Shown in pieces: positions 1-64,000 of a stretch of 64,000 bases of DNA; positions within the stretch are counted from its first letter, which is position 1, and each line of letters opens with the position of its first letter. Position numbers and translations under genes: made by a program. Where the stretch lies: assembly GCA_029778715.1 (NCBI GenBank), contig JAKOPT010000045.1, positions 62,001-126,000 of the forward strand, in the 5' to 3' direction. Below the pieces are notes generated by a model, which saw only the letters and a list, made by a program, of their open reading frames with translations, made no database searches and was not told the origin of the DNA. Source of the DNA: Actinomycetes bacterium (lineage in GTDB: Bacteria; Actinomycetota; Actinomycetes; Actinomycetales; Dermatophilaceae).

Positions 1-1
1 C

Positions 2-205
2 TTCGTCGTCGGCGGCGGCGTCACCCGGGTCATCCCGCTCACCGGCCTGACCATGCCGTTCCTCTCCCAGGGCGGCTCCTCGCTGCTGGCCAACTGGGTC
101 ATCGTCGCCATCTTGTTGCGGATCAGCGACCATGCCCGCCGGCCACTGCCCGACCCCGGCCCGAGTGCCATCGGCGGCGCCGAAACCCAGGTGGTGCGGC
201 TATGA
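2..205 (+). CDS. FtsW/RodA/SpoVE family protein, C-terminal fragment (truncated by window start)
   Basis: Frame 2 reads [32 protein letters not shown]..., the SEDS C-terminal signature; stop overlaps the next ATG (ATGA). Confidence 0.9.
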
Positions 206-1653
206 ACGCCCCGATCCGCCGGATGTCGACCGTCGTCGCCTTCCTCTTCGCCACCTTGCTCATCTCGACGACGTGGATCCAGTTCGGCGAGGCGAAAAGC
301 CTCAACGCCCGCGACGACAACCGGCGCACCCTGCTGGCCACCTACGCCCGCGAGCGCGGTCAAATCCTCGTCGGCGACACCGCCATTGCCGTGTCCAAAC
401 CCGTCGACAGCGAGTTCAAATACCTCCGCACCTACCCCTCGGGTGCCCTGTATGCCGACCTCACCGGTTACTACTCCTTCTACGGCGCCGGGGGTGGCCT
501 GGAATCCACCGAGAACCCGCTGCTCTCGGGGAGCAGCGACAAACTGTTCTACCGGCGCGTCTCGGACCTGTTCACCGGGCGCCGCCCGCAAGGGGCAAGC
601 CTGCTCCTCACCATCAACGCCAAGGCCCAGGAGGCGGCCTCGTCCGCGCTCGGCGACCAGCGGGGCGCGGCCGTCGCCCTCAACCCCAAAACCGGGGAGA
701 TCCTCGCCCTGGTCACCAAACCGACGTACGACCCCAACCCGTTGGCGAGCCACGACCTCAACGCGGTCGACACGGCATACAAAACCCTCAACGCCGACCC
801 GGCCCGTCCCATGGTCAACCGGGCCATCGCCGGCAACCTTTACCCGCCGGGCTCGACGTTCAAGGTGATCACGGCCGCGGCGGCGCTGTCGTCGGGGAAG
901 TGGACGCCGAGCAGCCAGGTCCCCGGGCCGGCGGTGCTCACCCTGCCGCAGACGACCGTCGGACTGCCCAACTCGGGCGGGCGCTCGTGCGGAGCCAACG
1001 ACCAGGTGACGGTCCAGGATGCGTTGCGGATGTCGTGCAACACGGCGTTCGGGTGGCTCGGGCTCCAACTCGGTGGGGATGCGCTGCGGGAGCAGGCGGT
1101 GAAGTTCGGGTTCGGCGACCAGGTGAGCATCCCGATGAAGGTGACGCCGAGTTCGGTGCCCGCGCAACTCAACCCGCCGCAGACGGCCCAGTCGGCCGTG
1201 GGACAGTATGACGTGCGGGTCACGCCGATGCAGATGGCGATGGTCGCTGCGGGGATCGCAAACAAGGGGGTCGTCATGGAGCCGTATCTCGTCCGGTCGG
1301 TGCTCGCCTCGGACCTCTCGACGGTCGAGACAGCGAGCCCGACGGTGCATTCGACGGCGGTGACCCCCGAGGTGGCCGCGCAGTTGACCGCGATGATGGA
1401 GTCGGTCGTCACTGACGGCACGGGGACGGCGGCCCAGATGTCCGGGGTGCAGGTCGCCGGCAAGACGGGCACCGCGCAGCACGCCCCGGGGGCGGCGCCG
1501 CATGCGTGGTTCATCAGTTTCGCGCCGGCGAACGACCCGACCGTGGCAGTCGCGGTGGTCGTCGAAGAGGGCGGCAACGCCGGCGACCAGGCCTCCGGTG
1601 GGCGGACGGCGGCCCCGATCGCCAAGGCCATCATGCAGGCGGTGCTCCAGTGA
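202..1653 (+). CDS. pbpA: Penicillin-binding protein 2 / peptidoglycan transpeptidase (PbpA)
   Basis: [16 protein letters not shown] (SxxK), KTGTAQ (KTG) motifs; position between SEDS protein and pknB. Confidence 0.93.
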
Positions 1654-1788
1654 GTCGCTACCTTGCCCACCGTGGCGCGCCGGTCCGCGGTCCCGGCCGG
1701 TGCCGCTGCGCCGGGAGCCGGCCGCCCGGCATACATCCGCCAAAGCCCCTGGGTGAGCATCGCCCGCCCCCGCCCCGGCCCGGCCTCC

Positions 1789-1820
1789 GTCAACAATCGA
1801 CCAATAGGTGGATTGTTGAC
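1789..1820. repeat. 32-bp dispersed palindrome, copy 1
   Basis: GTCAACAATCGACCAATAGGTGGATTGTTGAC. Confidence 0.95.
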
Positions 1821-1891
1821 GGGTCGGCAGCCCCCGCCTGCCCCCGCCCCGTTGTCCCGTGTATGCCGTCGATCGCAAGGAGCGAGAACCG

Positions 1892-3763
1892 ATGAGTGAG
1901 CAACCCCGCCTGCTGGGCGGCCGGTACGAGGTCGGTGACCTCATCGGCCGCGGTGGGATGGCCGAGGTGCACCGCGGCATCGACACCCGGCTCGGTCGTC
2001 AGGTGGCCATCAAGATGCTCCGCAGCGACCTGGCCCGCGACGCCTCCTTCCTCACCCGGTTCCGCCGGGAGGCCCAATCGAGCGCCGGGCTCAACCACGC
2101 CTCGATCGTCGCCGTCTACGACTCCGGCGAAGACCACACCGTCGATGCGACGGGGCAGCCGCAGGACGTGCCGTTCATCGTCATGGAGTACGTCGAAGGC
2201 AAGACGCTGCGCGAGGTCCTCACCCGCCGCGGCCATTTGAGCACCGCCGACTCGTGCCGGATCACCGAGGGCATCCTCGACGCTCTGGCCTACAGCCACC
2301 GGATGGGCATCGTCCATCGTGACATCAAGCCGGCCAACGTCATGATCGGCACCGACGGCTCGGTCAAGGTCATGGATTTCGGGATTGCCCGGGCGATCGC
2401 GGACAGCAACGCCACGATGACGCAAACCCAGGCCGTCATCGGCACCGCCCAATACCTCTCGCCCGAGCAGGCCCAGGGCCAGACCGTCGATGCTCGCTCG
2501 GACCTCTACTCGACCGGGTGCCTCCTCTACGAACTGTTGACCGGCCGCACCCCCTTCCAGGGCGACACCCCGGTGGCTATCGCCTATCAGCATGTGGGAC
2601 AAGAACCTCCGGCACCCTCAACCTTCGAGCCCGCGGTGCCTGCGGACCTTGACGCCGTCGTGCTGCATTCCCTGGCCAAGGACCGCACCGCGCGCTATCA
2701 GAACGCTGCGGACTTCCGCGCCGACCTGCAGGCGGTGCGCTTGGGCCGGCCGATCAGCGCGGTGGCCGCGGCCACTCTCGCCGGGCTCGGCGGCGCGGCC
2801 GGGTCACTCGCCGGAGGTGCGGCCGCGACCGAACGGATCTCTCCCTTGGCTGCCCCGCCCACCGAGGTGTATGCCGTGACCACCCGTTCCGGTGGTGGGG
2901 CACCTTCCCCGGCGGCCCGGCCGGCGCCCGGCTCGGGCGACGCCGGTAGCACGACGACGTTGCCCGCGGTGCCGCCGGCGAAGCCACCACGCCGGCGCGG
3001 GATGTGGGCATGGCTGACCGCGGCGGCGCTGGTCGCGTTGGTGTTGTTGGGCTGGGGCGTCAAGGCCTATGTCGATCACCAAGCCAATGCCGCGTCCATG
3101 GTCGCGGTTCCCGACGTCACCGGGCAGCCGCGCTCGACGGCTCAGTTGAAGATCACCCAGGCCGGTTTGGTGCCGGTGGTGACGACCGAGAACAACAAGG
3201 AGGTCGCCGCGGATAGCGTGATCCGCCAGGATCCGCAGGGCGCCACCCAGGTCAAGAAGGGCAGCACCGTTCAACTCGTCGTCTCGGCCGGACCCGAGGC
3301 GATTGTCGTGCCCGACCTCAAGGGCCGCACCCAGGCCGAGGCCAAGGCCGAACTCGAACGGCAGGGCCTGACCTTGGGCACGGTGACCGAGCAGAACGAC
3401 ACGAAGCAGCCCAAGGGCACGGTGGTGTCGTCCTCGCCGCCGGCCGGGCAGTCGGTTGCGCCCAAGGGCGCGGTCAACCTGACGGTCAGTTCGGGCAAGG
3501 TCACGGTCCCCGACCTCAAGGGCATGTCCCAAAACGACGCCTACAACCAGTTGGCCTCGACGGGTCTGACGCCGAAGTCGGTGTTCAAGCAGACCTCTGA
3601 GGCGCCGGACGGGACGGTCATTGCCCAAGATCAGAAGCCCGGTGCGGTGCTCGACAGCGGGGCGACGCTCACCATCACGGTCGCGCAAGCGGCCCCCCCG
3701 AGCCCAAGCCCCACGCCGACGTCCTCTGGCTCCCCCTCACCCACGCCGAGCAGCAGCCACTGA
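1892..3763 (+). CDS. pknB: PASTA-domain serine/threonine protein kinase
   Basis: GRGGMAEVHRG, HRDIKPANVMI, DFGIA motifs; TM segment; PASTA repeats (VPDVTGQ, VPDLKGRTQAEA, VPDLKGMSQ); AAGGAG RBS before ATG 1892. Confidence 0.95.
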   Translation: MSEQPRLLGGRYEVGDLIGRGGMAEVHRGIDTRLGRQVAIKMLRSDLARDASFLTRFRREAQSSAGLNHASIVAVYDSGEDHTVDATGQPQDVPFIVMEYVEGKTLREVLTRRGHLSTADSCRITEGILDALAYSHRMGIVHRDIKPANVMIGTDGSVKVMDFGIARAIADSNATMTQTQAVIGTAQYLSPEQAQGQTVDARSDLYSTGCLLYELLTGRTPFQGDTPVAIAYQHVGQEPPAPSTFEPAVPADLDAVVLHSLAKDRTARYQNAADFRADLQAVRLGRPISAVAAATLAGLGGAAGSLAGGAAATERISPLAAPPTEVYAVTTRSGGGAPSPAARPAPGSGDAGSTTTLPAVPPAKPPRRRGMWAWLTAAALVALVLLGWGVKAYVDHQANAASMVAVPDVTGQPRSTAQLKITQAGLVPVVTTENNKEVAADSVIRQDPQGATQVKKGSTVQLVVSAGPEAIVVPDLKGRTQAEAKAELERQGLTLGTVTEQNDTKQPKGTVVSSSPPAGQSVAPKGAVNLTVSSGKVTVPDLKGMSQNDAYNQLASTGLTPKSVFKQTSEAPDGTVIAQDQKPGAVLDSGATLTITVAQAAPPSPSPTPTSSGSPSPTPSSSH

Positions 3764-4020
3764 CGTCGATCCCTGGCTAAAGGCGGGCTCCGCAGTCTGC
3801 CCGCGCCGTCTCCGTCACCGTCTCCGTCTCCGTCTCCGTCACCGAGCGCGAGCCGCTGACCCCGGCTCGGCCCGCCCGAGTCGAAAGTACGCAACTTGCC
3901 GTATGCCGAGTGCGCGCACGGCGAGTCTCGTACTTTCGACCTGGTCGACCCTTGCGCTGGCTTGCCCGGCGCTCCCGCTCTGTCCCTGGACCGCACACCC
4001 TCGGCCGTGGCGTAGGTTCA

Positions 4021-4105
4021 GGTGGGAAAGGGGCACTTCGCACCCGAACATTTGGGGCGCGAAGTGGACCTTTCCCGCCCAAGGCGGGAAAGGGGTGACG
4101 GGTGG
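4021..4105. repeat. ~85-bp intergenic element, copy 1 (reverse orientation)
   Basis: GGTGGGAAAGGGGCACTTCGCACCCGAACATTTGGGGCGCGAAGTGGACCTTTCCCGCC... Confidence 0.93.
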
Positions 4106-4121
4106 GACGGGCTGGATGCGA

Positions 4122-4778
4122 TCAGGCGTGGGCGACCAAGGCGGCGATCCCGGCGGCATCGTGGACCAGCGGCGAGAGCCCCGCTGAGCGTCCTATCGCC
4201 TCGGTATCACCGGTCATGGCCAGCCAGTTCGCGAGCAACCGGTGCCCGCCTTCGGTCAGCACCGACTCGGGATGGAACTGGACGCCGTGCAACGGCAACT
4301 CCCGGTGGCGCACCGCCATGATGAGCCCCGAGGCTGTGTGCCCATTGGCGACCAGGGCCGGCGGCATCGTCGCCGGGTCGATCGCCAGCGAGTGATAACG
4401 CGTCGCCGTGAACGGTGAGGCCAACCCCGCCAACACCCCGGTCCCGTCATGGTGCACCGGCGAGGTCTTGCCGTGGAGCAACTCCGGCGCCCGCCCGACC
4501 GTCGCCCCGAACACCACCCCGAGTGCCTGATGGCCGAGGCATACCCCGAGCATCGGCTGCGCCCGCTGCGCGCACGCGGCGATCATCGCCATCGACACCC
4601 CGGCCTCCTCGGGCGTCCCCGGCCCCGGCGACACGAGCACCCCGTCGAACCCGGCCGCCTCGTCGGGCGTCACCGCGTCGTTGCGGACCACGGTGCACGT
4701 CGCCCCGAGCTGTTCGAGGTAGCCGACGATCGTGAACACGAAACTGTCGTAGTTGTCGACGACGAGGATCTGGCTCAC
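4122..4778 (-). CDS. pabA: Aminodeoxychorismate/anthranilate synthase glutamine amidotransferase component
   Basis: ILVVDNYDSFVFTIV, GVCLGHQALG, GVQFHPESVLT motifs; probable GTG start at 4778. Confidence 0.9.
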   Translation of the reverse strand: MSQILVVDNYDSFVFTIVGYLEQLGATCTVVRNDAVTPDEAAGFDGVLVSPGPGTPEEAGVSMAMIAACAQRAQPMLGVCLGHQALGVVFGATVGRAPELLHGKTSPVHHDGTGVLAGLASPFTATRYHSLAIDPATMPPALVANGHTASGLIMAVRHRELPLHGVQFHPESVLTEGGHRLLANWLAMTGDTEAIGRSAGLSPLVHDAAGIAALVAHA

Positions 4779-4867
4779 GTGCGGCTCCCGGAAGTGGTGG
4801 GCGAAGTCAGACATACGGTATGCCGCCGCGCCGCCCCCAGCACACCCGTCCGCCCGCCGCACTCGCC

Positions 4868-4953
4868 CCACCCGTCACCCCTTTCCCGCCTTGGGCGGGA
4901 AAGGTCCACTTCGCACCCCAAATGTTCGGGTGCGAAGTGCCCCTTGCCCACCT
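4868..4953. repeat. ~85-bp intergenic element, copy 2
   Basis: CCCTTTCCCGCCTTGGGCGGGAAAGGTCCACTTCGCACCCCAAATGTTCGGGTGCGAAGTGCCCCTTGCCCACC. Confidence 0.93.
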
Positions 4954-5005
4954 CTAGTTCGGGAACCCGCGCACGACATCAGCGACGAAAATCAAGCGCG
5001 AGCAC

Positions 5006-5254: not shown

Positions 5255-5257
5255 CGA

Positions 5258-17853: not shown

Positions 17854-17991
17854 CGGAGTCGTGCTGCGGCCCGACACCGGGCCGCAGCACGGTCAGCCGG
17901 CCACGGCACTGAGTCGAGGCGGCATACCTCCCTCCCGTCATCGCGGCATACCCCCAAGACTCGGAGTCGGCGCCTTGCCAGGCTGCGCGGC

Positions 17992-18007
17992 ATACCCCCG
18001 GGGGTAT
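17992..18007. promoter_or_regulatory. CsoR/CstR-type operator ATACCCCCGGGGGTAT
   Basis: Perfect palindrome upstream of thioredoxin-rhodanese gene. Confidence 0.8.
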
Positions 18008-27164: not shown

Positions 27165-29764
27165 GGCATACCTCCATCGTCATCACCCGGGACCAACGGG
27201 CCCTGGGAGGCAGGGTCGAGCGGCTCCGGGGAGGCAGTGTCTGTCTCGCCCGACGGTACGGCATCGGTGCTCGGCTCCGCACCTTCATCCACGGCGCGCT
27301 CGACGTTGCGGGCAACGGCCACGATGGCGTCCCCGGCGCGCGGGCGGGCGAAGGCGACACCCATCGTGTTGCGCCCGGTCAGCCGCACCTCATCGACGCG
27401 GGCCCGCATGATGTTGCCCTTCTCGAAGACGACAAGCACCTCGTCGTCGTCCGCGACGGTCAAGGCCCCGACGAGGTCCCCGCCCTTGTCCGACAATCTG
27501 GCCACGGCCACTCCGAGAATGGCACGCCCCTTGACGTTCCACTCACTCACCTTGGAGCGCTTGGCCAGCCCGGACTCGAACACGACGAACACGTCCGGGT
27601 CGGTCCCGGCCTCGATAACCGACATGGACAGCAACGAATCGGTCCCGCGGAACTTCATCCCGGTCACCCCGGACGTCGCCCGCCCCATCGGCCGCAGCGT
27701 CGCGTCGTCGGCGTGGAAGCGCACCGACTGCCCCTTGCGCGAGACGAGGAGCAGGTCGTCATCCGCGCTGGTCAGGCCGACGCCGACCAATGTGTCACCC
27801 TCCCGCAGGTTGACGGCGATGAGGCCACCGGAGCGCGGGGAGTCGTACTCGGCGAGACGGGTCTTTTTCACCAGTCCGCTCTTGGTCGCCAAGACGAGGT
27901 ATGCCGCGTCGTCGTAGGCCTTGATCGCGAGCACCTGGGCGATTTCCTCACCCGGCTGGAAGGCCATGATGTTGGCGACGTGCTGGCCCTTGGCGTCGCG
28001 CCCGGCGTCGGGCAGTTCGTAGGCCTTGGCCCGATAGACCCGCCCCAAGGTGGTGAAGAACAGCAGCCAGTGGTGGGAGGTGGTCGCGAAGAAGTGCTCG
28101 ACCATGTCCTCGCCGCGCAGCGCCGCCCCCTTGACACCTTTGCCGCCGCGCCGCTGGGTGCGGTAGGCGTCGACGCGGGTTCGCTTGGCGTAGCCCCCGC
28201 GGGTGATGGTGACGACGACATCCTCTTGGGGGATGAGGTCCTCCACGGACATGTCCCCGTCGAAGGGCACCATGGCGGTGCGCCGCTCGTCGCCGAACCG
28301 CTTGACGATGTCGCCGAGTTCGTCGGCGACGATGCCGCGCTGACGGCTCGGGGTGGCCAGGATGTCCTGGTAGTCCTCGATCTGGGCCTGCAACTCGTCG
28401 TGGTCGCGGATGATCTTTTCCCGCTCCAGGGCCGCCAACCGCCGCAACTGCATGTCGAGGATGGCACGCGCCTGGTCCTCGTCGATGTCGAGCATCGCCA
28501 TCAACCCGTCGCGGGCCTGCTCGACGGTCCGGCTGCGCCGGATCAAGGCGATGACCTCGTCGAGTTGGTCGAGGGCCTTGAGCAGCCCACGCAAGATGTG
28601 AATCTCGCGTTCGGCCTTGGCCAGCCGGTATGCCGTCCGGCGCTGGATGACGTCGATCTGGTGCTCGACCCAGTGCCGGATGAAGGCGTCGATGGGCAGC
28701 GTGCGGGGCACGCCGTCAACGAGGGCCAACATGTTGGCGCCGAAGTTGGTCTGCAGTTGGGTGTGCTTGTAGAGGTTGTTGAGGACGACCTTGGGCACGG
28801 CGTCCTTTTTGAGGACGATGACGAGGCGCTGCCCGGTGCGCCCGGACGTTTCGTCGCGGATGTCCGCGATGCCGGCGAGGCGGCCGTCCTTGACGTGCTC
28901 GGCGATCTTCTGGGCGAGTGAGTCCGGGTTGACCTGGTAGGGCAACTCGGTGACGACCAGGCACATCCGGCCCTGGATCTCCTCGGTTTCCACGACCGCG
29001 CGCATGATGATCGAGCCGCGCCCGGTGCGGTAGGCGTCCTCGGTCCCCCGGTGCCCCATGATGAGGGCGCCGGTCGGGAAGTCCGGGCCCTTGATCTCGC
29101 GCATGACCGCCTCGAGGGTCTCCTCGCGGCTGGCGTCGGGGTGGGCGAGCACCCACTGGGCGGCGGCGGCCACTTCGCGCAGGTTGTGCGGCGGGATCTG
29201 GGTGGCCATCCCGACGGCGATCCCCGAGGACCCGTTGACGAGCAGGTTGGGGAAACGGCTGGGTAGCACCTCCGGTTCGAGGGTCTTGCCGTCGTAGTTG
29301 GGTTTGAAGTCGACGGTGTCCTGGTCGATGTCGCGGACCATTTCGACCGAAAGGGGCGCCATCCGGCACTCGGTGTACCGCGGCGCCGCCGCCGGGTCGT
29401 CCCCGGGCGAGCCGAAGTTGCCCTGCCCCTGCACGAGCGGGTAGCGCATCGACCAGTCCTGGACCAGCCGCACGAGCGCGTCGTAGATCGCGCTGTCACC
29501 ATGGGGGTGGTACTGCCCCATGACGTCGCCGACGACCCGGCTGCACTTGTTGAAGCCCCGGTCCGGGCGGTAACCGCCGTCCCACATGGCATAGAGCACC
29601 CGCCGATGCACCGGCTTGAGCCCATCGCGCACGTCGGGCAGCGCCCGCGACACGATGACCGACATCGCGTACTCGATGTAGCTCTGCTGCATCTCCAGGT
29701 TGAGATCGCGCGGCTCGACCCGGTCGCCCCCCGTGGTCAGCGTCCCGTTGGTGTCGTCACTCAT
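27161..29764 (-). CDS. gyrA: DNA gyrase subunit A
   Basis: [48 protein letters not shown]. Confidence 0.98.
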
Positions 29765-30013: not shown

Positions 30014-32407
<2,394 letters not shown>

Positions 32408-37409: not shown

Positions 37410-38092
37410 CCCGTATGCCGTTGCGCCTCGTTGCCGTCGACGATCACCCGATCGTCGTCGCCGGACTGGTCGCCCTGCTCACCGGGCCCGAGAACGACCT
37501 CGACCTGGTCCATACCGCGACCTCCTGGCCGGCGCTCGAGGAGGAGTTGCGCCACCTCGACCCTCCCGACCTGGCCCTTGTCGACCTGAACCGCTCCGAC
37601 GGGACCGCCCCGGAAGTCGCAGTGGCCGGGTTGGCGGCCCGCGGCATACCGGTCGTCATCATCACCTCCGAAATGCGACCCGTGCCGATCCGCCGCGCGC
37701 TCGCGGCCGGCGCTCGCGGCCTCGCCCTCAAGTCCGACCCGATCGAGGACATGCTCGACGTCATTCGCACGACGGCGGCCGGGGAGCAGGCGTGGAGCAG
37801 TGACATCGCCTTCGCCCTCCTGTCCGACCGCCACCTCGTCGGCGAACTGGCCCCTCGCGAACTGGAAGCCCTCTCCCTGCTCGCCGAGGGCTGGCCGCGC
37901 AAGAGCATCGGTCGGCGCATGGACCCCCCGGTGTCCACGACCACCGTCATCACCCATCTCACCCGAGCCATGGGGCGCTATCGCGATCTCGGTCGCGCCG
38001 TCGACGCCCCCGGAGACGCCGCGCGGGCGGCCGGGTCGCCTGCGGCGCCACCGACGGCCGCTGACCGCACCAGAGGGGACGGACAGTTCTAG
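37406..38092 (+). CDS. NarL/FixJ-type response regulator
   Basis: VAVDDHPIVVAGL, DLALVDLN receiver; C-terminal LuxR-like HTH; overlaps kinase stop. Confidence 0.9.
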   Translation: MTRMPLRLVAVDDHPIVVAGLVALLTGPENDLDLVHTATSWPALEEELRHLDPPDLALVDLNRSDGTAPEVAVAGLAARGIPVVIITSEMRPVPIRRALAAGARGLALKSDPIEDMLDVIRTTAAGEQAWSSDIAFALLSDRHLVGELAPRELEALSLLAEGWPRKSIGRRMDPPVSTTTVITHLTRAMGRYRDLGRAVDAPGDAARAAGSPAAPPTAADRTRGDGQF

Positions 38093-43231: not shown

Positions 43232-44677
43232 TCAGCGGCGGATCTGCATCACCACGGCCTTGGGCTCGGTGAAGAACTCGCGGCTGAAGTTGCCGCCCTC
43301 ACGCCCGACGCCGGAATCGCCGACGCCACCGAACGGGGTGCGCAGGTCGCGGATGAAGAAGCAGTTGACCCAGACGGTGCCGGCCCGCAAGTTGGAGGCG
43401 ACCCGGTGGGCGCGCGAGAGGTTCTCGGTGAAGAGCATCGCGTTGAGGCCGTAGCGGGTGTCGTTGGCCAGGTGGACGGCCTCTTCCTCGGTCTCGAACT
43501 TGTTGACGATGCAGACCGGTCCGAAGATCTCCTCGCAGTAGGGCGCGGCGTCCAGAGCCAGCCCGTCGATGATCGTCGGCGTCACCGACCATGAGCCGTC
43601 GGTCGCGACCCCGCCGGTGTGGAAGTGCCCGCCCAGGTCCTTGGCGCCCTCGACATAGGAGACGACCTTCTCGAAGTGGCGCTTGCTCGCGAGCGCACCG
43701 GCGAACTTCACGTTCGGGTCGAACGGGTCGCCGATGGGCAGCGCCTCCGCGGCGGCCTTGAACTTGGCCATGAAGTCGTCGTAGATCGAGGAGTGCACGA
43801 ACAGGCGCGAGCCGGCGAGGCAGATCTGGCCGGCGTTGCGGAAGATCGCCTCGACCGCCCAGTAGACGGCGTTGTCGATGTCGGCGTCCTCGAAGACGAT
43901 GTTCGCGCCCTTGCCGCCGAGTTCGAGGGAGACGGGGGCGAGATGGGTCGCGGCGGAGGCCATGACCATCTTGCCGGTGGTGCTGGAGCCCGTGAAGGTG
44001 ACGCGGTCGACCCGGTCGTCACCGGTGATACTCGAGCCGGCGGGGTGGCCGTAACCGTTGAGGACGTTGAGGACGCCCGGGGGGAATCCGGCCTCGACGG
44101 CGAGTCGGCCGAGGTAGGTCACCGAGGAGGGGGTGTCCTCGGACGGCTTGATGATGCAGGTGTTGCCCCAGGCGATCGCGGGGGCGATCTTCCACGAGGC
44201 CATCATCAGCGGGAAGTTCCAGGGGGAGATCGCGGCGACGACCCCGGCCGGCCCGAACTCGCTGTACGTGTGGTGCCCCGAGTCCATCGGGTAGACCTCG
44301 CCGACGTGATCGCGCTGGTGGTCGGCGAAGAAGCGGAAGTTCCACACCGAGCGGGCGACATCGTGCTTGGCCTGCTCGAACGGCTTGGCCATGTTCTTGG
44401 TGTCGAGCGTCGCGATCTCGGTGGTGCGCTCCTCCATGAGATCGGCGAGTTTGTGGATCATCTTGGCGCGCTCGTTGCGACCCATCCTGGGCCAGGGGCC
44501 CTCGTCGAAGGCCGTGCGCGCGCTGGTGATCGCCCGGTCCGCGTCCTGGGCGCTGCCCTCGGCCGCCTGCGCCCACACCTCCCGGGTGTAGGGGTTCCAG
44601 ACGTCAAAACGCTTGCCGTCGATGGACTCAACTTCCTCGTTGTCAATGATGTGCCCGAAGAACTCCAGCTCGCTCAT
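43232..44677 (-). CDS. 2-hydroxymuconate semialdehyde dehydrogenase-like aldehyde dehydrogenase
   Basis: SLELGGKGANIVFEDAD, FRNAGQICLAGSRLFVH; adjacent to 4-oxalocrotonate branch genes. Confidence 0.85.
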   Translation of the reverse strand: MSELEFFGHIIDNEEVESIDGKRFDVWNPYTREVWAQAAEGSAQDADRAITSARTAFDEGPWPRMGRNERAKMIHKLADLMEERTTEIATLDTKNMAKPFEQAKHDVARSVWNFRFFADHQRDHVGEVYPMDSGHHTYSEFGPAGVVAAISPWNFPLMMASWKIAPAIAWGNTCIIKPSEDTPSSVTYLGRLAVEAGFPPGVLNVLNGYGHPAGSSITGDDRVDRVTFTGSSTTGKMVMASAATHLAPVSLELGGKGANIVFEDADIDNAVYWAVEAIFRNAGQICLAGSRLFVHSSIYDDFMAKFKAAAEALPIGDPFDPNVKFAGALASKRHFEKVVSYVEGAKDLGGHFHTGGVATDGSWSVTPTIIDGLALDAAPYCEEIFGPVCIVNKFETEEEAVHLANDTRYGLNAMLFTENLSRAHRVASNLRAGTVWVNCFFIRDLRTPFGGVGDSGVGREGGNFSREFFTEPKAVVMQIRR

Positions 44678-45170
44678 GGCGTCCACTGTCGGGTCGGGTA
44701 TGCCGTGGGGCGAGGGTCGTTTCCCGCTGCGGAACGCCGATCGCACCCGGGTCGGCGCGCCCCTCGTGTCCACGTCCCGATTCGAGGTAATAGCGCGCGA
44801 ATCTCCCGGCGTTTTTACCTCGAATCAGCCGGGAGATCGCCACGGCGTCGCCACGTTGGCGTAGGCCGGCAGCCGGTTGAGGACGACATACGGCCACGAC
44901 GAAGTCCCGCTACACCCATCTCCGGTCGCCTCCCGACGGCCAACGAGCCCCGGTCGACGCAGGTGTCCGAGACGCTCGAGACCGGCACGTCACCGACCAC
45001 GACGTACGTACCGGGACTCGTCCCCGGGTGCCCGCCCTGTTCGTCCCGGCGGCTCTCATCCTTGCCCGGGGAACGGCATACGTCCAAGGATCGCGCCTCG
45101 TCGGTGAGCCATTGACGCAGCGGTATGCCGTGCGCCGGGCCGCCACCTCCCCCGTATCTCCCCGTCCCTC

Positions 45171-47436: not shown

Positions 47437-48441
47437 TCAGACTCCTGCCTTCTCGGTGATGACGGTGATCGGGTCGGGGGTGTCGCCCAAGTCGGCGGAC
47501 GACTTCCAGGTCGTCTCGACCCCGAACTTGTGGGCGAGCATGAGGTCGCCGACGCGCGCGGCGGCGGCGGTGATGATGTCGAGGTTGCCGGCGTAGTCGG
47601 GCAGGTAGTCCCCGCGGCCCTTGACCTCGATGGGGATGAACACCCGGCCCATGCCGCGCCACAACTCGCGGGCGTGGTCGAACTGGACGGCCGCGCGCAG
47701 GTGGTAGCCGGGCACGTAGTCCTGGACCCGCTCGACCATCCGGTGGATCGAGTCGAGGATCTTGTCCTGCAGGTCACCGGGCTCGGCGGCCTCGGGCGGG
47801 ATCGCGCAGAACACGCTGTTGCGCATCATGAGCGGCGGCTCGACCGGGTTGAGGATGATGATCGCCTTGCCGTGCTCGGCGCCACCGACAACCTCGAGAG
47901 CCTCCGAGGTGGTCTCGGTGAACTCGTCGATGTTCGCGCGGGTGCCCGGGCCGGCGGACTTGCTGGAGATCGAGGCGACGATCTCGGCATACGGCACCGG
48001 GACGACGTCGGCGACGGCGCGCACCATGGGGGTGGTTGCCTGGCCGCCGCAGGTGATCATGTTGACGTTCATCGCGTCGAGGTTGAACTCGAGGTTGACC
48101 GGCGGGCAGATGTAGGGCCCGACCGCGGCCGGGGTGAGGTCGACGGCGAGGATGCCGGCCTCGGCATACCGGGGCGCGTTGGCGCTGTGCGCCTTCGCCG
48201 AGGTGCACTCGAAGACGATGTCGGGCAACTCGTCCTGGGCGAGCAGCCAGTCGACGCCCTCGTGGCTGGCTTCGAGGCCGACCGACTTGGCGCGGCGCAG
48301 ACCGTCGGAGGCCGGGTCGACGCCGATCATGTAGCGCGGCTCGATGATGTCGCTGCGCCGCATGAGTTTGAACATCAGGTCGGTGCCGATGTTGCCGGGG
48401 CCGACGATCGCCGCGGTCCCCTTGCGGGTCACTGGTGCCAT
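47437..48441 (-). CDS. Acetaldehyde dehydrogenase (acylating)
   Basis: [33 protein letters not shown]. Confidence 0.95.
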
Positions 48442-48498
48442 GGTGGCTTCTTTCTCGTATGCCGTGGGGCCTGGTATGCCGTGGGGCTGGGTTCGCCG

Positions 48499-48530
48499 GT
48501 CAACAATCCACCTATTGGTCGATTGTTTAC
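48499..48530. repeat. 32-bp dispersed palindrome, copy 4
   Basis: GTCAACAATCCACCTATTGGTCGATTGTTTAC. Confidence 0.95.
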
Positions 48531-48586
48531 GGGAGTCGGGTGGGAGCGGGGGTGGACGAAGCGGTGGGACGAGGGTGGACGACGGT

Positions 48587-49369
48587 CTAGACGAAGCGGG
48601 CGGTGACCGAACCGAGGCCGGCGAAGGTCGCGGTGAACGAGTCGCCGGCGGCGATCGGCACCATCGCGCAGACGGCGCCGGGGAGGACGACGTGCCCGGC
48701 TTCGAGGACGATGCCGCGCGCGCCGACCGTGTTGGCCAGCCAGACCAGGGAGTTGATCGGCGAGCCGAGGACCGCACCGCCCGCACCGGTGCCGGCGATC
48801 TGGCCGTTGCGGTGGAGGATCGCCCCACCGAGGCGCAGGTCGACGTCGGCCAGGGCCGTGGGGGTCGAGCCGAGGACGACCGCGCCGCTGCTCGCGTTGT
48901 CGGCGATGGTGTCGAGCAGGCCGATCTTCCAGTCCTTGATCCGCGAGTCGACGATCTCGAGGGCCGGCAGCACGAAGTCGATGGCGGCAATCGCCTCGTG
49001 GACCGTGACGCCCGGGCCCTGGAGCGGCTTCTTGAGCACGAAGGCGACCTCGGGCTCGATGCGCGGCTGGACGAACCGGTCGGCCGGGATGGGCAGGTGC
49101 TCGAGGTAGAAGAAGTCGTCGAGCAGGTGCCCGTAGTCGGGCTCGGTCACGCCGAGGAGGCGCTGCATCGCCACGCTCGTCAACCCGACCTTGTGGCCCT
49201 TGACGGTGCGACCACCACTGACCAATTCGTGCATCTGGAGCAGCTGAATCGCGTAGGAGTCGGCCAGTTCCATGCCGTCGTAGGTCGAGGTCAGCGGGTC
49301 GATCGGCTCCCTCGTCGTGTACGCCTCCAGGAGTCGATGGGCGGCTTCGGCCCGGGTGAGGTTGTCCAT
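48587..49369 (-). CDS. 2-keto-4-pentenoate (2-oxopent-4-enoate) hydratase
   Basis: [25 protein letters not shown]...[10 protein letters not shown]. Confidence 0.9.
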
Positions 49370-57130: not shown

Positions 57131-57174
57131 CCGCTCTCCTCCGGTCGAGATCGCGCCCGCCGGAAGCGAACGCA

Positions 57175-57235: not shown

Positions 57236-57287
57236 GGTAGCCCGGACCTCGACGGCAGCAGGCGGCGGGCGCCGGCGGCATACCCCT

Positions 57288-57319
57288 GTCAACAATCCAC
57301 CTATTGGTCGATTGTTGAC
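57288..57319. repeat. 32-bp dispersed palindrome, copy 5
   Basis: GTCAACAATCCACCTATTGGTCGATTGTTGAC. Confidence 0.95.
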
Positions 57320-57360
57320 ACCGGAGCGAGCGCCGGCGGCATACCGGATCGGGGCCGCCC

Positions 57361-58458
57361 TTACCGCTTGATGAGCGGCGAGTTCACCCCACCGCTCTTG
57401 TCGCCCTCGTTGAAGAACTCCTCGCGGTAGATGTCGCGCGGGAACAGCCGCTTGGCCATCATCGTCTTCAGGGCCGCCTCGACCATGAGCGGCGGGCCAC
57501 ACAAATAGCCCTTGCACCCCGACAGGCTCGGGTGATCGGCCGCGATGACGTCGGTCACCATGCCATAGGCGTATGCCGCGGGGTCGTCACCGCTCGCCTC
57601 GACCTGTTCCGCCGTCTCCTCCGACAGACACGGACGGTAGGTGAACTGCGGGTACTCCTCCGCGAGCGCGCGGAAGAAGTCGACGTCGTAGAGCCATTCG
57701 CGCGACCGACCGCCCTGGTAGAGGGTCATGTCGCCTTCGTACATCTCGTTCTCGAGGCCGTGGCGCAGCATCGACTTGATCGGTGCGAGCCCGGTGCCGC
57801 CGGCGACCATGATCGTGTGGTTGTCCTCGCCGGTGTGCAGGACGAACCGGCCGTAGGGCCCGGACATGGGGAAGGTGTCCCCGACGGCGAGGTCCTTGAA
57901 CACCCAGCCATCGGTGCCACGCCCACCGGGAACGTTGCGGATGTGGAACTCCAGGGTGCGGCCCTGGGTGGGCGGTGAGCCGATCGACCAGGTGCGGTCG
58001 CACGCCTCCGCCCCGGCCGCGCCCGGGACCGTGAACTTCATGTACTGCCCCGCGTTGAACGCGATGTCCCGGTCCACCTCGACGATCAACCGCACCGTGT
58101 CGCGGGCGATCTCGTCCTTGGCGACCAGGGTGCCGACATAGTCCTGCACGGGGAACATCTCGATGTCCTCGTCGACGTCGATGTCGGCCTCGATCGTCAC
58201 GTCCGAGCGGGGCTTGGCGCAGCAGGTGAGGAGTTTGCCCTCGTCCCGCTCGAAGTCCATGAGCGCGAAACTGCTCGCCTCGCCGTGGTCGACCTCCCCG
58301 TCGGCGATCTCGCACTTGCACGTCGCGCAGGTGCCGTGCGTGCAGGAGTGCGGCAGCCAGACACCCGCGCGCAGGCAGGCGTCGAGGATCGACTGGTCGT
58401 CCCGGCATACCACCTGGCGCCCCAACGGTTCGACGGTGACGATGAAGGACTCGCTCAT
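57361..58458 (-). CDS. Phenol hydroxylase reductase component (P5-like)
   Basis: CTHGTCATCKCEI 2Fe-2S loop; FAD/NAD-binding domains (VAGGTGLAPIKSML). Confidence 0.93.
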   Translation of the reverse strand: MSESFIVTVEPLGRQVVCRDDQSILDACLRAGVWLPHSCTHGTCATCKCEIADGEVDHGEASSFALMDFERDEGKLLTCCAKPRSDVTIEADIDVDEDIEMFPVQDYVGTLVAKDEIARDTVRLIVEVDRDIAFNAGQYMKFTVPGAAGAEACDRTWSIGSPPTQGRTLEFHIRNVPGGRGTDGWVFKDLAVGDTFPMSGPYGRFVLHTGEDNHTIMVAGGTGLAPIKSMLRHGLENEMYEGDMTLYQGGRSREWLYDVDFFRALAEEYPQFTYRPCLSEETAEQVEASGDDPAAYAYGMVTDVIAADHPSLSGCKGYLCGPPLMVEAALKTMMAKRLFPRDIYREEFFNEGDKSGGVNSPLIKR

Positions 58459-58622
58459 GGTCTTGGCTTTCGTGGTCTCGACAGTGGACGGAGAAAGGAC
58501 AGGGGAGGTATGCCGGGTGCGCCCGGCACGCGGCATACCTCCGAGGTGGGTGGAGACGAAGGCGAGCGGACCGGTCACGGGCGGGGCACGATCACCGTGC
58601 CCCGCCCGACGATCCGTGGGGA

Positions 58623-59000
58623 TCAGGGACCGGTGAACCCGAGGACCGACTTGTGGGTCAGACCCAGGTCGGCGAGGGTGACGTCCGCGCTCGGGCTGAT
58701 GGGCGTCGAGGCCCGGCCGTTGCCGATGAACCAGGAGAACTGGCCCCAGCCGCCCTCGGCGTTGAAGTCCGGGTCTTCGCTGTGGTAGGGCACGAACACG
58801 CCCTCCCAGAACTCACCGAACGTCATCGCCTGGGGCACGCGGTAGCAGGCCGCCGCGACGAACCACGGGTTGCCCTTCCACCACACGTGGAGGAGCATGT
58901 CGTCGCCGTACAGCGCCTGGGCGGACTTGCTCGGGAAGTTGTACTCCCCGATCGACTTGATCTCGGGACGCTCGATGGTGTCCTGCAACACGGCGCTCAT
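58623..59000 (-). CDS. Phenol hydroxylase P4-like subunit
   Basis: Position between P3 and P5; YGDDMLLHVWWKGNPWFVAAACYRVP. Confidence 0.88.
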   Translation of the reverse strand: MSAVLQDTIERPEIKSIGEYNFPSKSAQALYGDDMLLHVWWKGNPWFVAAACYRVPQAMTFGEFWEGVFVPYHSEDPDFNAEGGWGQFSWFIGNGRASTPISPSADVTLADLGLTHKSVLGFTGP

Positions 59001-59002
59001 GA

Positions 59003-60532
59003 TCAGTTGCCTCCCGTCTCGTCGGCCATGTCGTGCCACTTCTTCCAGTTCTGGTTGTCCAGGCTGCCGAGGTATTCCCCGCCGTCACCGGGCTTCATGT
59101 GGTACCAGTCGAGCACCCCGGGCAGGTCGGCGGCGCCGCAGTTGCCCTGGTAGATCTGGTGGACCGGCAACCACGCCTGGCGGTACTTCACCGGCTCGTG
59201 GTCGAAGATGTACTGGCATCCGTCGGAGCAGAAGTTGTACCGCTCGCCTTCGAAGATCGACTCGCGCTGGGCCTGGATGAACGGCTCGTCGGCCTCGGTG
59301 AACCCCATGGGGATCTGGCAGACCTGGCACAACTGCGGCAAACCGCGGATGAAGTGCCGACCACCGGCCGCGATGTTCTTCTTCTCCTTCTCCCACAGGG
59401 TGCGGTAGATGGGGAAGGTGTCGGGGTACTGCTCGGTCAGCCAGTCCATGTGCTCGTCGCTCGGCACCGAGGTGGTGAAGGCGGCGGCGTGGCTGAACTG
59501 GTAGAGGATCCAGTACGCCTGGTGCGAGAGGTACTCCTTCTCCTGCATCGCCTTGTCGACGTGCAGCGGCGGGGTGATGCCGTAGTAGGCGAGGTCCTGG
59601 AAGAGCCCGCCGAGCATCTGCTGCTCGAAGTAGAGCTCGAAGGCTTCCTTCCACGACATGACCTTGCGGGGCAGCATGTAGTCGAGCATCTGGGCGACCA
59701 GGGCGGTAACCCGGTAGCCCCGCCAGAACCACTTGTTGATCCAGTGCTGGACGAGGGGGACGTTCTTCTCGTCCTGCTCGAGGAGGAACTTGATCGCCTC
59801 GAGACCGAGCGTCATGTGCCGCGACTCGTCGGACTGCGCCGAGAAGCCGAACGTCATCGTCGGCAGGTCGCCGTTGAAGGACGCGCCGGACATGAAGGGC
59901 ACGAAGAGCAGGTTCGTCAGGAGGTACTCGAAGGAGAACCCGATGGCGATGAGGAACTCGAACGGGCCGGCCGAGAGGGCGTCGTCGAAGAACGACTTGG
60001 GCACCGAGAGGTACCACACCCGGTCGTGCATGTGCAGGTAGGAGTGGAAGCCCGCGTAGTACTTGTTGTAGTTGGACAGGGTGTGGATTTCGGTCTGCGC
60101 GTGCCGGATCTCGTCGAGGCTCTGGCAGAGCGAGGCAAACCGCGGGCCCGGGCCGTTGAGGTGGCGGGCGAGCATCGCGAAGTTGCGGTGCGCCTGGTAC
60201 TCCAGCGGCGAGACACCCTGGAGGAAGAGCTTCATCGCGTTGAGGTAGCTCGCGTCGGTCAGGCTGAGGTGGCCCTGGCTTTGCGCGAAGCCGTCCAACA
60301 CGGCATACAGGCGCTTGTCCTTCTCCGCCTGGTACTTCGTGTAGGCATCCACGGTGAGCCGGAACGGGTCCTCCCACTTGGACCAGTCGTGGATGGTGAT
60401 GCCCTCGAACGAGGTCAGCGGGAACATCTCCTCATCGGAGACGTAACTGGGGTCCCACTCGAGGTCACGAGTGAGGGCGCTGTAGCGCTGCTTCATGGTC
60501 AGCTTGCGTGGCGCCTTGGGGGTGATGGTCAT
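59003..60532 (-). CDS. Phenol hydroxylase large (P3-like) diiron oxygenase subunit
   Basis: DEIRHAQTE and SDESRHMTLG (ExxH diiron ligands). Confidence 0.95.
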   Translation of the reverse strand: MTITPKAPRKLTMKQRYSALTRDLEWDPSYVSDEEMFPLTSFEGITIHDWSKWEDPFRLTVDAYTKYQAEKDKRLYAVLDGFAQSQGHLSLTDASYLNAMKLFLQGVSPLEYQAHRNFAMLARHLNGPGPRFASLCQSLDEIRHAQTEIHTLSNYNKYYAGFHSYLHMHDRVWYLSVPKSFFDDALSAGPFEFLIAIGFSFEYLLTNLLFVPFMSGASFNGDLPTMTFGFSAQSDESRHMTLGLEAIKFLLEQDEKNVPLVQHWINKWFWRGYRVTALVAQMLDYMLPRKVMSWKEAFELYFEQQMLGGLFQDLAYYGITPPLHVDKAMQEKEYLSHQAYWILYQFSHAAAFTTSVPSDEHMDWLTEQYPDTFPIYRTLWEKEKKNIAAGGRHFIRGLPQLCQVCQIPMGFTEADEPFIQAQRESIFEGERYNFCSDGCQYIFDHEPVKYRQAWLPVHQIYQGNCGAADLPGVLDWYHMKPGDGGEYLGSLDNQNWKKWHDMADETGGN

Positions 60533-60609
60533 GGGTTGGGTTCTCCTTCAAACGTTGAGTCGAGCCGTATGCCGTGCGGCCGTATGCCGTATGCCGTCCG
60601 GCCGGGTCC

Positions 60610-60704
60610 GTCAACAATCCACCTATTGGTCGGTTGGTGACGGCGATCCGGGCCAGGTGGCCGGTCGGGGCCGTCAACAATCCACCTATTGGTCGGTTGT
60701 TTAC
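60610..60704. repeat. 32-bp dispersed palindrome, copies 6 and 7
   Basis: 60610-60641 and 60673-60704, GTCAACAATCCACCTATTGGTCGGTTG(G/T)T(G/T)AC. Confidence 0.95.
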
Positions 60705-60994
60705 GGGCGGTCCCAGGCGATGCGGATCTGGTCGTCGTCCCACTCCTTGATGTGCCCGAAGTAGGAGATGATCGCGAGCTGGAACTCGTGGGTCTCCCAT
60801 TCGCGGCCGAGGCGCTCCTCGACGGTTTCGCGGTTGATCACGAGTTCCCCAGGGGATTGGATGCGGACCATGCCGGGCAGGTAGCGCACCGTGGCCTTGG
60901 GGTTGTCGGCCTCGATCGCTTCGATCACGGGCCGGTTCTGTTCGTTCTCTTGGATGTCGACGCCGACCGGTCGGTCTTCGGCAGAGACAGTCAT
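60701..60994 (-). CDS. Phenol hydroxylase regulatory (P2-like, MmoB/DmpM family) subunit
   Basis: Size, position and IEADNPKATVRYLPGMVRIQSPGELVINR. Confidence 0.9.
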   Translation of the reverse strand: MTVSAEDRPVGVDIQENEQNRPVIEAIEADNPKATVRYLPGMVRIQSPGELVINRETVEERLGREWETHEFQLAIISYFGHIKEWDDDQIRIAWDRP

Positions 60995-61031
60995 GATGCT
61001 CAGTTCTCCGTAAGTTGTGCGGACGGGTCGG

Positions 61032-62057
61032 TCAGGAGGCCGGGGTCTCGACGGTGACGCCGAGGGCGGCGAAGGCGGCAACGATCTGCTCGGCAGCGGT
61101 CGCCAACGAGGCGGCGGCACCGGCGTCGACGAGCCCGTCGGCCTTGGCAGCCACCGGCTGCAGCGCGGCCAGCGCGGTCGCCAAGGTGGTGGAGACGATC
61201 GAGCCGAGGAGCGCCTTGTTGGCCTCGCCGAGTTCGGGGTCGGACACCCACGCCTTGTAGAGCGCGTCGAACCAGCGGCGCTGGTCGGTGAACCACTGGG
61301 ACAGGTGCTGGGCCACGAGCGAGTAGGACGCGGCACCGGCGTTGAGAGCGGCGTCGTCGAGCGCGGTGTAGAACAGGCCGTAGATGAGCCGGTCGGTGAC
61401 GTCGCTGGCAACCATCGCCACGCCCCAGTCCTTCTCGACAAGCATCTCTTCGACGTGCTTACGCAGCGGCTGGAAGGCTTCGTCCTCGAGCCAGGTCCGC
61501 TTGGCCAGGTCGAGCGACTCGGCCGTGCCACCACCGAAGGAGATGCCGGCGCGGGAGAGGATCTGGGCGTTGCCGATCCGGTCGAACGCGGCATACGCGA
61601 AGCACTGCGTGATCGACGTGCCCCAGCCGTAGCGGGCCGCGCCGGAGGCGATCATCTGGTTGGCCGCTTCGTAGTGGCGCAACGGGAGAACGACATCCTG
61701 GAACAGGCTCGACCAGGCCGCCGGCAACCGCTGGAACATGCCGCGCTTGTCCAGGTAGGCCAACGTCGCGCCGAACGCCTCATGCAGGTCGGCGCGGGCC
61801 GTCACATAGGGGGCGTAGTAGAACTGGCGGGGGTCGACGAACGAGTAGGCGTCGGTGAGTTTGAGGGCGCTGTAATCCGGGGAGTAGATCTCCTTGCTCG
61901 GATCCCACAGCGGCCGGTAGTGGTAGTTGACCCGAGCCTGCAGGTCGATGGTGCCCTCTTCGTACCGCGAGGCGGGACGGTCGCCGTAGCGGTCGATGAG
62001 GTGCTGGAACGTTTTGCGCTGCGGCTCGATGACCTGAGTGCGCAACTCGAATTGCAC
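61032..62057 (-). CDS. Phenol hydroxylase P1-like (beta) subunit
   Basis: YHYRPLWDPSKEIYSPDYSALKLTDAYSFVDPRQFYYAPYV. Confidence 0.93.
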   Translation of the reverse strand: MQFELRTQVIEPQRKTFQHLIDRYGDRPASRYEEGTIDLQARVNYHYRPLWDPSKEIYSPDYSALKLTDAYSFVDPRQFYYAPYVTARADLHEAFGATLAYLDKRGMFQRLPAAWSSLFQDVVLPLRHYEAANQMIASGAARYGWGTSITQCFAYAAFDRIGNAQILSRAGISFGGGTAESLDLAKRTWLEDEAFQPLRKHVEEMLVEKDWGVAMVASDVTDRLIYGLFYTALDDAALNAGAASYSLVAQHLSQWFTDQRRWFDALYKAWVSDPELGEANKALLGSIVSTTLATALAALQPVAAKADGLVDAGAAASLATAAEQIVAAFAALGVTVETPAS

Positions 62058-62103
62058 GAGCTTCTCCTTTGCGGGTGCGGGGACGGACGGGGAGGCGCCG
62101 GGC

Positions 62104-62538
62104 TTAGGTGCCCGAGGCCACGAGGAGGCGGACGAGTAGGTCGGGGAGGGCGTCGGGTCCGGTCAACTCCTGGGGGAGGTCGGACTCGAAACCGTCGCCG
62201 ACGAGCCGGCCGTATGCCGTGCCGTCCTCGAAAGTGGTCGAAACCCGAGCCGCCCGGCCGGCATACCCGACGTTGAAGGCGAGCTCGCTGGGAAGGGTCT
62301 CGTCGAACAGGGTGAGGTGGTGGTCGCCGGACTCGTGATGGGAGGCGAGCACGGCATTGGCCTCGCAGACGAGCTGCTCGGCGTAGGCCCGCAAGGCGAC
62401 CTGACGGTCGGCTCCGGTGCCGGTGGCAATCCGTTGGCTGATCCGCGTCTGCGGCATCGGGGCGATCTCGTCGACATCGGCGAGTTCGTCCTCGGTGGCA
62501 CCGACGAGGTCGGCGATGCGGATCATGAAGGGCGTCAT
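62104..62538 (-). CDS. Uncharacterised 144-aa protein in phenol hydroxylase operon
   Basis: Complete ORF between P1-like and GlcG/HbpS-like genes with 4-bp overlap to the upstream gene. Confidence 0.75.
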   Translation of the reverse strand: MTPFMIRIADLVGATEDELADVDEIAPMPQTRISQRIATGTGADRQVALRAYAEQLVCEANAVLASHHESGDHHLTLFDETLPSELAFNVGYAGRAARVSTTFEDGTAYGRLVGDGFESDLPQELTGPDALPDLLVRLLVASGT

Positions 62539-62996
62539 CGAGGACTCCTCGGGGTGACGGTGGCCTCGGTCAGGGCCGCGACGAGCGTCTCGACCCCGGC
62601 AGCGGCCACCTCGGTGTCTTGAGCAGCCGACCCGCCCGAGGCCCCGACGGCCCCGACGACCTCGCCGTCGACGACGATGGCCACACCCCCGCCGAAGGCG
62701 GCGATGCCGGGTCGGTTGGCGATGCCGCGCACGACGGCGTCTTCACCGGCGAGCGCGTCGTAGAGCCCGTCGGTCGGGGCGCCGCCGAACCGCACGACCG
62801 TGCGGCACTTGTCCTGGGCGATGAGCCCCGACTCGGCGAACGCCCCGTCCATGCGGGCGAAGGCGATGAGGGTGCCGGCCGCGTCGGTCACGGCGATGTT
62901 GAACCGTCCCTGCAGGTCCTCGGCCTTGGCGAGCGCGCCCTGCAGGGCGACGGTGGCCGCGGCATACGTGAGGTTCCAGGTGGGGCGAAGCAACAC
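62535..62996 (-). CDS. GlcG/HbpS (DUF336) heme-binding-like protein
   Basis: FNIAVTDAAGTLIAFARMDGAF...NRPGIAAFGGGVAIVVDGEVVGAVGASGG. Confidence 0.88.
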   Translation of the reverse strand: MLLRPTWNLTYAAATVALQGALAKAEDLQGRFNIAVTDAAGTLIAFARMDGAFAESGLIAQDKCRTVVRFGGAPTDGLYDALAGEDAVVRGIANRPGIAAFGGGVAIVVDGEVVGAVGASGGSAAQDTEVAAAGVETLVAALTEATVTPRSPR

Positions 62997-63115
62997 GGCA
63001 TACCTCCTCTTCGGTAGTGAGAGACGGATGGGGGTGGATTCACACGGTGTGCGGGCAGCACCTCATGACGGTGCGGGAGTCAGGGGCCACCCGCACCGCC
63101 ACGAGGCAGGTCCGA

Positions 63116-64000
63116 TCAGGTGTAGACGGTGGTGAAGCGCTCGTTGAGTTCGCGGGCGTGGTAGAAGATGCCCTTGGCGATCTGGTCCGGGGTCCACTTC
63201 ACGAGCGGGCGGTCGCGGTAGGCGGGGTAGCCACCGGCGTAGACCTCGTTGCGGTTGCCCGACGGGTCGAAGAAGTAGATCGTCTGGCCGCGGGTGATGC
63301 CGTGGCGGGTCGGGCCGATGTCGATCGGCACGTCGTCCATGGCGAACAGGTCACCGGCGCGCCCGACCTCGGTCCAGTCACCGAGCTTGAAGGCGAAGTG
63401 GTGGAGCTTGCCCTGGGAGTCGCCGGGGGGGCCTTCGAGGACGGCGAGCTGGTGGATCTGGTTGTTCGCGGTCATCCAGGTGGCGATGAAGTGGGCGTCG
63501 TTGTCGTCGAGGTCGGTCTGGACCCGCTCGGTGGGGTAGAAGTCGAAGACCTGGGTGAGGAAGCGCTCCATGCCACGCACGTCCTCGGCGAGGATGAGGG
63601 CGTGGTCGAGGGCCGGGACGCCGACACCGACGAGGTGGCGCGGGAACGCCTCGGGGTTGTGGGTGCCGACCTCGGTGCCGATGAGGGTGGCCTCGTGGTA
63701 GACCTCGAAGAGGTGACCGCTCGGGGTTTCGAAGCGGATGCCGTCACCGATCTCGGGGTTTTCGCCCTTGCTCATCCGCTGCACCGTCGCGCCGGCCGCC
63801 TGGGCGTTGCGCTCGATGTCGTCGATGTCCTCGGACTTCTCGACCTTCCAGCCGAACTTGACCAGGCCGACGCCGCCCTCTTCGAGGACGACCGAGTGGT
63901 GGTCCCACTCGTCCCAGCCCTTGTAGTACACCTTGCCGTCCTGGGTCAGCGTCTCGTAGAGACCCAGGGTGTTGGCGTAGTGGCTCTTGGCTTCGGCCAT
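63116..64000 (-). CDS. Catechol 2,3-dioxygenase (extradiol), 5' end outside window
   Basis: VOC fold: HFATW-like ATWM..., HHFAFKLGDW, GQTIYFFDPSGNRNEVYAGGY; N-terminus appears to continue beyond 64000. Confidence 0.92.
   Translation of the reverse strand: MAEAKSHYANTLGLYETLTQDGKVYYKGWDEWDHHSVVLEEGGVGLVKFGWKVEKSEDIDDIERNAQAAGATVQRMSKGENPEIGDGIRFETPSGHLFEVYHEATLIGTEVGTHNPEAFPRHLVGVGVPALDHALILAEDVRGMERFLTQVFDFYPTERVQTDLDDNDAHFIATWMTANNQIHQLAVLEGPPGDSQGKLHHFAFKLGDWTEVGRAGDLFAMDDVPIDIGPTRHGITRGQTIYFFDPSGNRNEVYAGGYPAYRDRPLVKWTPDQIAKGIFYHARELNERFTTVYT

Follow-up and report, generated by a model that had tools for sequence, protein, structure and literature searches.

Why does a single non-palindromic octamer recur about every 0.6 kb along an actinobacterial chromosome? 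This question is raised by a stretch of 64,000 nucleotides (hereafter the window) from the Actinomycetes assembly GCA_029778715.1 (G000; contig JAKOPT010000045.1, positions 62,001 to 126,000), in which the word GTATGCCG, read as CGGCATAC on the opposite strand, is scattered through genes and intergenic DNA. An earlier note, made from the letters of the window alone, had proposed three roles for it: a DNA-uptake or self-recognition tag, a modification target, or a nucleoid-protein site. Comparison across related genomes suggests that the octamer probably serves a Tad/ComEA/ComEC competence system as its uptake signal, a case of convergence with the DNA uptake sequence (DUS) of Neisseria and the uptake signal sequence (USS) of Haemophilus. 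We class it as a word that appears to work in the manner of uptake sequences, short of proof that it is one.

Abundance of the octamer

The full count gave 104 exact copies in the window, 51 on the plus and 53 on the minus strand, exactly the figures tallied by hand in the earlier note, and GTATGCCG was the most overrepresented of all words of eight bases. Dinucleotide shuffles of the window contained 1.2 copies on average and at most 4 in 100 shuffles, while an order-3 Markov model, itself inflated by the motif, predicted 4.9. Synonymous-codon shuffling of the window genes, which were called with a simple script based on open reading frames and GC content at third codon positions (GC3), led to an expectation of 3.7 copies compared to 70 observed; for 0.42 Mb of a congener (G002) the corresponding values were 16.8 and 246. 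Since these expectations lie far below the counts, chance, composition, protein sequence and codon usage are ruled out as the cause. The 24 single-mismatch variants of GTATGCCG together accounted for only 40 copies, and all eight positions are therefore constrained, as had been supposed. The ratio of perfect to single-mismatch copies was 104:40 in the window, 390:193 in the sampled part of G000 and 339:321 in G002.

The whole assembly (3.08 Mb, 83% complete) contains 4205 copies, 2081 and 2124 on the two strands, so that the earlier impression of no obvious strand bias holds genome-wide and the motif is neither confined to the window nor close to the Markov or codon-shuffled expectation. Regional counts of G000 were blank on many contigs of 1-2 kb whose letters appeared as N throughout (e.g., L087, L089, L091-L093, L095).

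Distribution among relatives

GyrB of G000 is 87% identical to that of Phycicoccus sp. CSK15P-2, and the assembly is Intrasporangiaceae-like. Two congeners contain 2410 and 2614 copies, and only 34 are found in Phycicoccus sp. CSK15P-2. Of 186 family genomes counted, roughly 105 exceed 600 copies, with a maximum of 4724, and 66 stay below 150 (hand tally of counts); about a third are at background level. The motif-rich members include Humibacillus xanthopallidus (3225 copies), Flexivirga endophytica (2542) and Ornithinimicrobium sp. F0845 (1692), whose genera are assigned by NCBI to Intrasporangiaceae, Dermacoccaceae and Ornithinimicrobiaceae, respectively, and, judging by matching copy counts, all lie within the family sampled here; GTDB Dermatophilaceae unites the three genera in the same way. 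Nothing comparable was seen in 241 sampled genomes of other lineages across the class, where the octamer stayed at background level. A motif restricted to the window or to the assembly is ruled out by these genome-wide and family counts.

The distribution is patchy even within genera. One genome (G045) has 37 copies compared to 1251-1660 in four sisters, another (G134) has 50 compared to roughly 400-1900 in other members of a genus taken as Ornithinimicrobium because its counts match, and a third (G109) has 19 compared to 3681 and 1062 in members of its genus. On a LeuS tree with 35 tips, the motif-rich or motif-poor state requires at least 9 changes. For most relatives the sequence itself was read over 20-60 kb only. 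The reversed pattern proved an unclean control in motif-rich genomes, as it overlaps neighbouring motif letters, and motif-poor genomes served as background.

Gain and loss of sites

In pairwise alignments, an exact copy was kept at the orthologous place in 74 of 137 cases (54%) within the genus and in 46 of 117 (39%) across motif-rich genera, compared to 8% for control 8-mers of the same strong/weak pattern, although these pair counts are not independent of each other. In motif-poor sister species none of 165 orthologous sites was exact, while about 7% of the controls were. Part of the site sharing may reflect near-miss sites that gained the word in parallel; at position 31828 of the window, for example, most relatives read GGATGCCG, one base away, and the full word is present in G000, G005 and Flexivirga.

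The near-miss states of relatives comprise single substitutions of many kinds, with many differences of one or two bases and few gaps, which points to an origin of copies by point substitution rather than insertion. Among sites one base away, the mismatch was found at seven of the octamer's eight positions and involved many base types, including T from G (15), T from C (12), A from G and G from C (5 each) and C from A (4). Together with the retention in motif-rich genomes and the loss in poor sisters, these substitutions indicate that single-base changes create the word, which then persists in lineages with the system and disappears in those without it.

Four of the longest stretches without a copy were examined, and three of them are mobile or atypical: an island with insertion sequences and glycosyltransferases, an integrase island and a region of low GC3. 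The low-GC3 region lies upstream of the window (L084:501-6560; about 20.5-26.6 kb of G000:C105). Its GC3 is 0.66-0.73, it contains a DndB/DpdB-like gene (L084:1585-3099), and it is probably a recently acquired defence-type island.

Placement and flanks

On the complete chromosome of G002 the octamer is evenly spread over both strands, and no strand switch occurs at the origin or terminus. Spacing is random, with a coefficient of variation of about 1, which rules out regular spacing. Based on crude gene calls, the density between genes exceeds that within genes (2.9 vs 1.3 per kb in the window; 0.96 vs 0.71 in G002), and no clear gene-end bias of the kind known from Pasteurellaceae was seen.

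The word extends into the motif sGTATGCCGYGnnS, whose flanks are weaker than the octamer core. The 3' preference is graded, with C or T at +8 in 83% of copies in the own genus, G at +9 in 54-77% and G or C at +12 in 91-92%; in addition, G or C is preferred at -1. These preferences recur in independent genera of the strict class described below, also in non-coding copies, and are absent in control 8-mers.

Dialects of the word

Genome-wide counts of GTATGDCG, in which position 6 may be A, G or T, split the motif-rich genomes into two classes. In the strict class this pattern remains at background, with 115 copies in G000 beside 4205 of GTATGCCG, 63 in G172 and 107 in G070. The relaxed class, described by GTATGNCG, includes Flexivirga (G062; 5477 copies of GTATGDCG vs 2542 of GTATGCCG), G005 (3747 vs 2288) and one further genus (g39; about 1150-1550 vs 1250-1660), and lacks the 3' flank preference. 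A third form, GGATGCCG, was found in G194, representing one genus, with 43 copies in the 40 kb sampled and 3.7 expected; near-misses outnumber perfect copies there (43:85), and GTATGCCG occurs only 40 times genome-wide. Three of the seven aligned GTATGCCG sites of G185 read GGATGCCG in its relative G194. This one-base change of the word resembles the dialect steps among neisserial DUS (PMC3630211).

Other words were noted in genomes poor in GTATGCCG. GGATGCCG is mildly enriched in G003 (genus g2; L126, L181, L220), a genome of the Phycicoccus group that lacks GTATGCCG itself (29 copies vs 7.2 expected in 60 kb). Another asymmetric word, CGAAGGGG (extended form GRCGAAGGGGG), occurs 48 times in 80 kb of the genera g53 and g58, both without GTATGCCG (L135, L138, L139, L227); its density is 0.45-0.85 per kb compared to 0.06 in the own genus, and it is present in genes and spacers. 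Conservation at CGAAGGGG sites was not above background, and the word possibly belongs to another system. G runs (GGGGGGGG) are strongly enriched in some motif-poor genomes, with 30-44 copies (L127, L130, L139; G173, G010, G117).

Competence machinery

In the actinobacterium Micrococcus luteus, natural transformation is carried out by Tad/Flp loci together with ComEA and ComEC (PMC4322843). ComEC was detected in 66 of 66 family genomes tested, ComEA in 76 of 77, DprA in 52 of 52 and TadB/C-type proteins in 76 of 77. A complete locus of the type tadA-tadB-tadC-small pilin-tadE-tadF-tadG, mostly located near prfB, is found in motif-rich and motif-poor genomes alike. Since these competence genes are nearly universal, they cannot account for the patchiness of the motif, and ComEC, ComEA, DprA and the T2SSF/Tad locus are ruled out as discriminating genes. 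Likewise, the genes clustered around comEC and Tad show no difference that sets motif-rich genomes apart from motif-poor ones.

A type IVa pilus is ruled out as the carrier, as just 2 of the 77 family genomes contain PilM. A PF04964 Flp pilin was recognised in about two thirds of the motif-rich and about a fifth of the motif-poor genomes (hand tally). However, the own genus is motif-rich and has no PF04964 match, and this pilin is not needed.

Weighing the explanations

Of the three roles proposed at the outset, the uptake tag fits best, given the excess of perfect over near-miss copies, the lack of strand bias, the dialects, the graded flanks, the Tad/ComEA/ComEC/DprA set and the low number of copies in some foreign DNA. 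According to this proposal, the competence apparatus would have a receptor that recognises the DNA sequence; it would bind sGTATGCCGYGnnS and favour the uptake of tagged DNA, the natural candidates being a minor pilin of the Tad pilus or ComEA. The entering strand would pass ComEC, be protected by DprA and then be recombined, and tagged alleles would replace untagged ones in a form of biased gene conversion by transformation. Because tagged DNA would be taken up more often, copies would accumulate by point substitution, in both orientations and in genes as well as spacers; they would be kept at orthologous places, and recently imported DNA would contain few of them. The dialects GTATGCCG, GTATGNCG and GGATGCCG may have arisen as the specificity of the receptor drifted, and where the receptor or competence is lost or changed, copies would decay to background.

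Several observations weigh against an uptake signal. Motif-poor relatives, Phycicoccus among them, possess the competence genes to the same extent, and no receptor candidate was found. On the trees of ComEA and ComEC the trait label changes 8 and 9 times, compared to 9 and 8 times for the controls LeuS and DegV, giving no sign of co-inheritance with the motif trait. A very long copy-free stretch with KDP and two-component genes in G002 is not obviously foreign. Furthermore, close pairs of the octamer occur in every orientation, one inverted type being slightly more frequent than expected, and no inverted-pair terminator habit was seen.

The octamer might instead be, or contain, the target of a methyltransferase or another modification system, with a repair ratchet of the kind proposed for the cyanobacterial highly iterated palindrome 1 (HIP1) making and keeping the copies. 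HIP1 is a genuine precedent, an overrepresented octamer tied to methyltransferases by a repair model (PMC4390886), and patchy presence within genera would suit a mobile modification gene. However, GTATGCCG is asymmetric and forms dialects, and its base preference extends in a graded fashion to flanking positions (+8 Y, +9 G, +12 S), which is unusual for an enzyme target. A contiguous asymmetric modification target of eight bases is unusual as well, and we consider this explanation unlikely. Graded flanks, even genome-wide spread and conservation at orthologous sites would also be expected of a site selected at many places for a nucleoid, segregation or recombination protein, similar to Chi or the FtsK-orienting polar sequences (KOPS). 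Identity with Chi or KOPS is ruled out by the lack of orientation bias relative to replication round G002 and by the strand counts of G000; in addition, spacing is random rather than regular, and complete absence from close relatives with similar chromosomes would be odd for a housekeeping site. Such an organising role therefore seems more doubtful still. The modification target and the nucleoid-protein site are thus both weakened as candidates, each keeping some weight.

Finally, a mutation or repair bias with no selected function, for instance Vsr-like or other context-dependent repair turning near-misses into the word, would be in line with the origin of copies by single substitutions and with their presence in both coding and spacer DNA. 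It is at odds with near-misses at seven of eight positions, of many base types rather than one mismatch type, and with the constraint on all eight positions. The substitution spectrum rules out Vsr-type single-mismatch repair, and we regard a bias of this general kind as very improbable. An uptake signal is consequently the reading we favour. With confidence only a little better than even, we go further and suggest a third independently evolved uptake-signal system, the first in Gram-positives and Actinomycetota: a self-recognition word shared across the family, with strict, relaxed and switched dialects, which a competence apparatus of the Tad-pilus/ComEA type would read in monoderm cells and which would have been lost, or have given way to other words, in several genera.

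Individual copies and other features of the window

The copies cited in the earlier note exist, but some of its coordinates were off by one to three bases (17944, not 17945; 60567/60582/60589; 37642; 2869). Its observation that copies occur both in intergenic DNA and within conserved genes (gyrB, gyrA and a pknB-like gene) is supported by the positions in Table 1.

Table 1. Octamer copies and the gyrB anchor, in window coordinates.
Feature	Position	Strand	Basis or remark
All 104 copies of GTATGCCG/CGGCATAC	1..64000	both	Exact count; random spacing
Intergenic trio of copies (17920, 17944, 17988)	17920..17995	-	Exact count, gene map
Trio of copies (60567, 60582, 60589), two overlapping by one base (7-bp register)	60567..60596	+	Exact count
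Copy within gyrB (gene on - strand), forces GGC-ATA-CCG	31828..31835	+	Exact count, alignment
Copy within gyrB	32045..32052	+	Common to G001, G002, G009, G122, G100, G172
Copy within gyrA	28628..28635	+	Common to G002, G075, G009, G013, G172, G110
Copy within gyrA	27899..27906	+	Common to G075 and G172
Copy within pknB-like Ser/Thr kinase gene (PASTA domains)	2869..2876	+	Exact count
Copy within gene 37406-38092	37642..37649	-	Exact count; putative response regulator gene, so labelled in the earlier note
gyrB	30014..32398	-	Taxonomy marker, anchor for orthologous regions

The gyrB copy at 32045 is found in none of the aligned motif-poor relatives, nor is the gyrA copy at 28628. The window also contains a soluble di-iron monooxygenase cluster of the methane/phenol/alkene type (57361-62057), which encodes a 2Fe-2S/FAD reductase besides two hydroxylase subunits of PF02332. 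Genes for aldehyde and acetaldehyde dehydrogenases lie in its vicinity (43232-44773 and 47437-48990).

Implications and comparison with known systems

If the octamer is an uptake signal, self-specific uptake would have a third origin, in high-GC Gram-positives that lack an outer membrane and a type IVa pilus, and natural transformability, hence genetic tractability, would be predicted in dozens of environmental genera. The seat of specificity, accumulation by molecular drive alone and the reasons for repeated loss would become testable, and the family offers natural experiments in the form of one-base dialect switches and of sister species that differ in whether they carry the word. The earlier note knew of no such element in actinobacteria, and we found no description of the octamer in the open PMC papers searched.

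Like HIP1 (GCGATCGC), the octamer is overrepresented, lineage-wide yet patchy, and dispersed through the genome; membership in HIP1 is ruled out by palindromy and constancy, GTATGCCG being asymmetric and having dialects. The candidate machinery is the same as that used for transformation by M. luteus, namely tadABC-E/F-G loci, ComEA and ComEC, although the term 'uptake sequence' is absent from that report (PMC4322843) and, in the present family, many genomes have no Flp pilin that can be recognised by PF04964.

Two Gram-negative families are known for self-specific DNA uptake, and a convergent origin of their words is assumed (PMC12616744). In Pasteurellaceae, an excess of perfect over near-miss copies is diagnostic of USS genomes (PMC1626085), and GTATGCCG displays the same excess. 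The word and the host group are different here, the flank preference is weak and lies immediately 3', and preferential uptake is predicted. Compared to the DUS of Neisseriaceae (GCCGTCTGAA and its dialects), the word is unrelated, the hosts belong to a Gram-positive actinobacterial family with a predicted uptake preference, and, in the absence of a type IVa pilus, there is no obvious ComP. Nevertheless, the octamer resembles DUS in being a short asymmetric word with thousands of scattered copies and single-base dialects between lineages, a combination that in Neisseriaceae is found in transformable hosts (PMC3630211).

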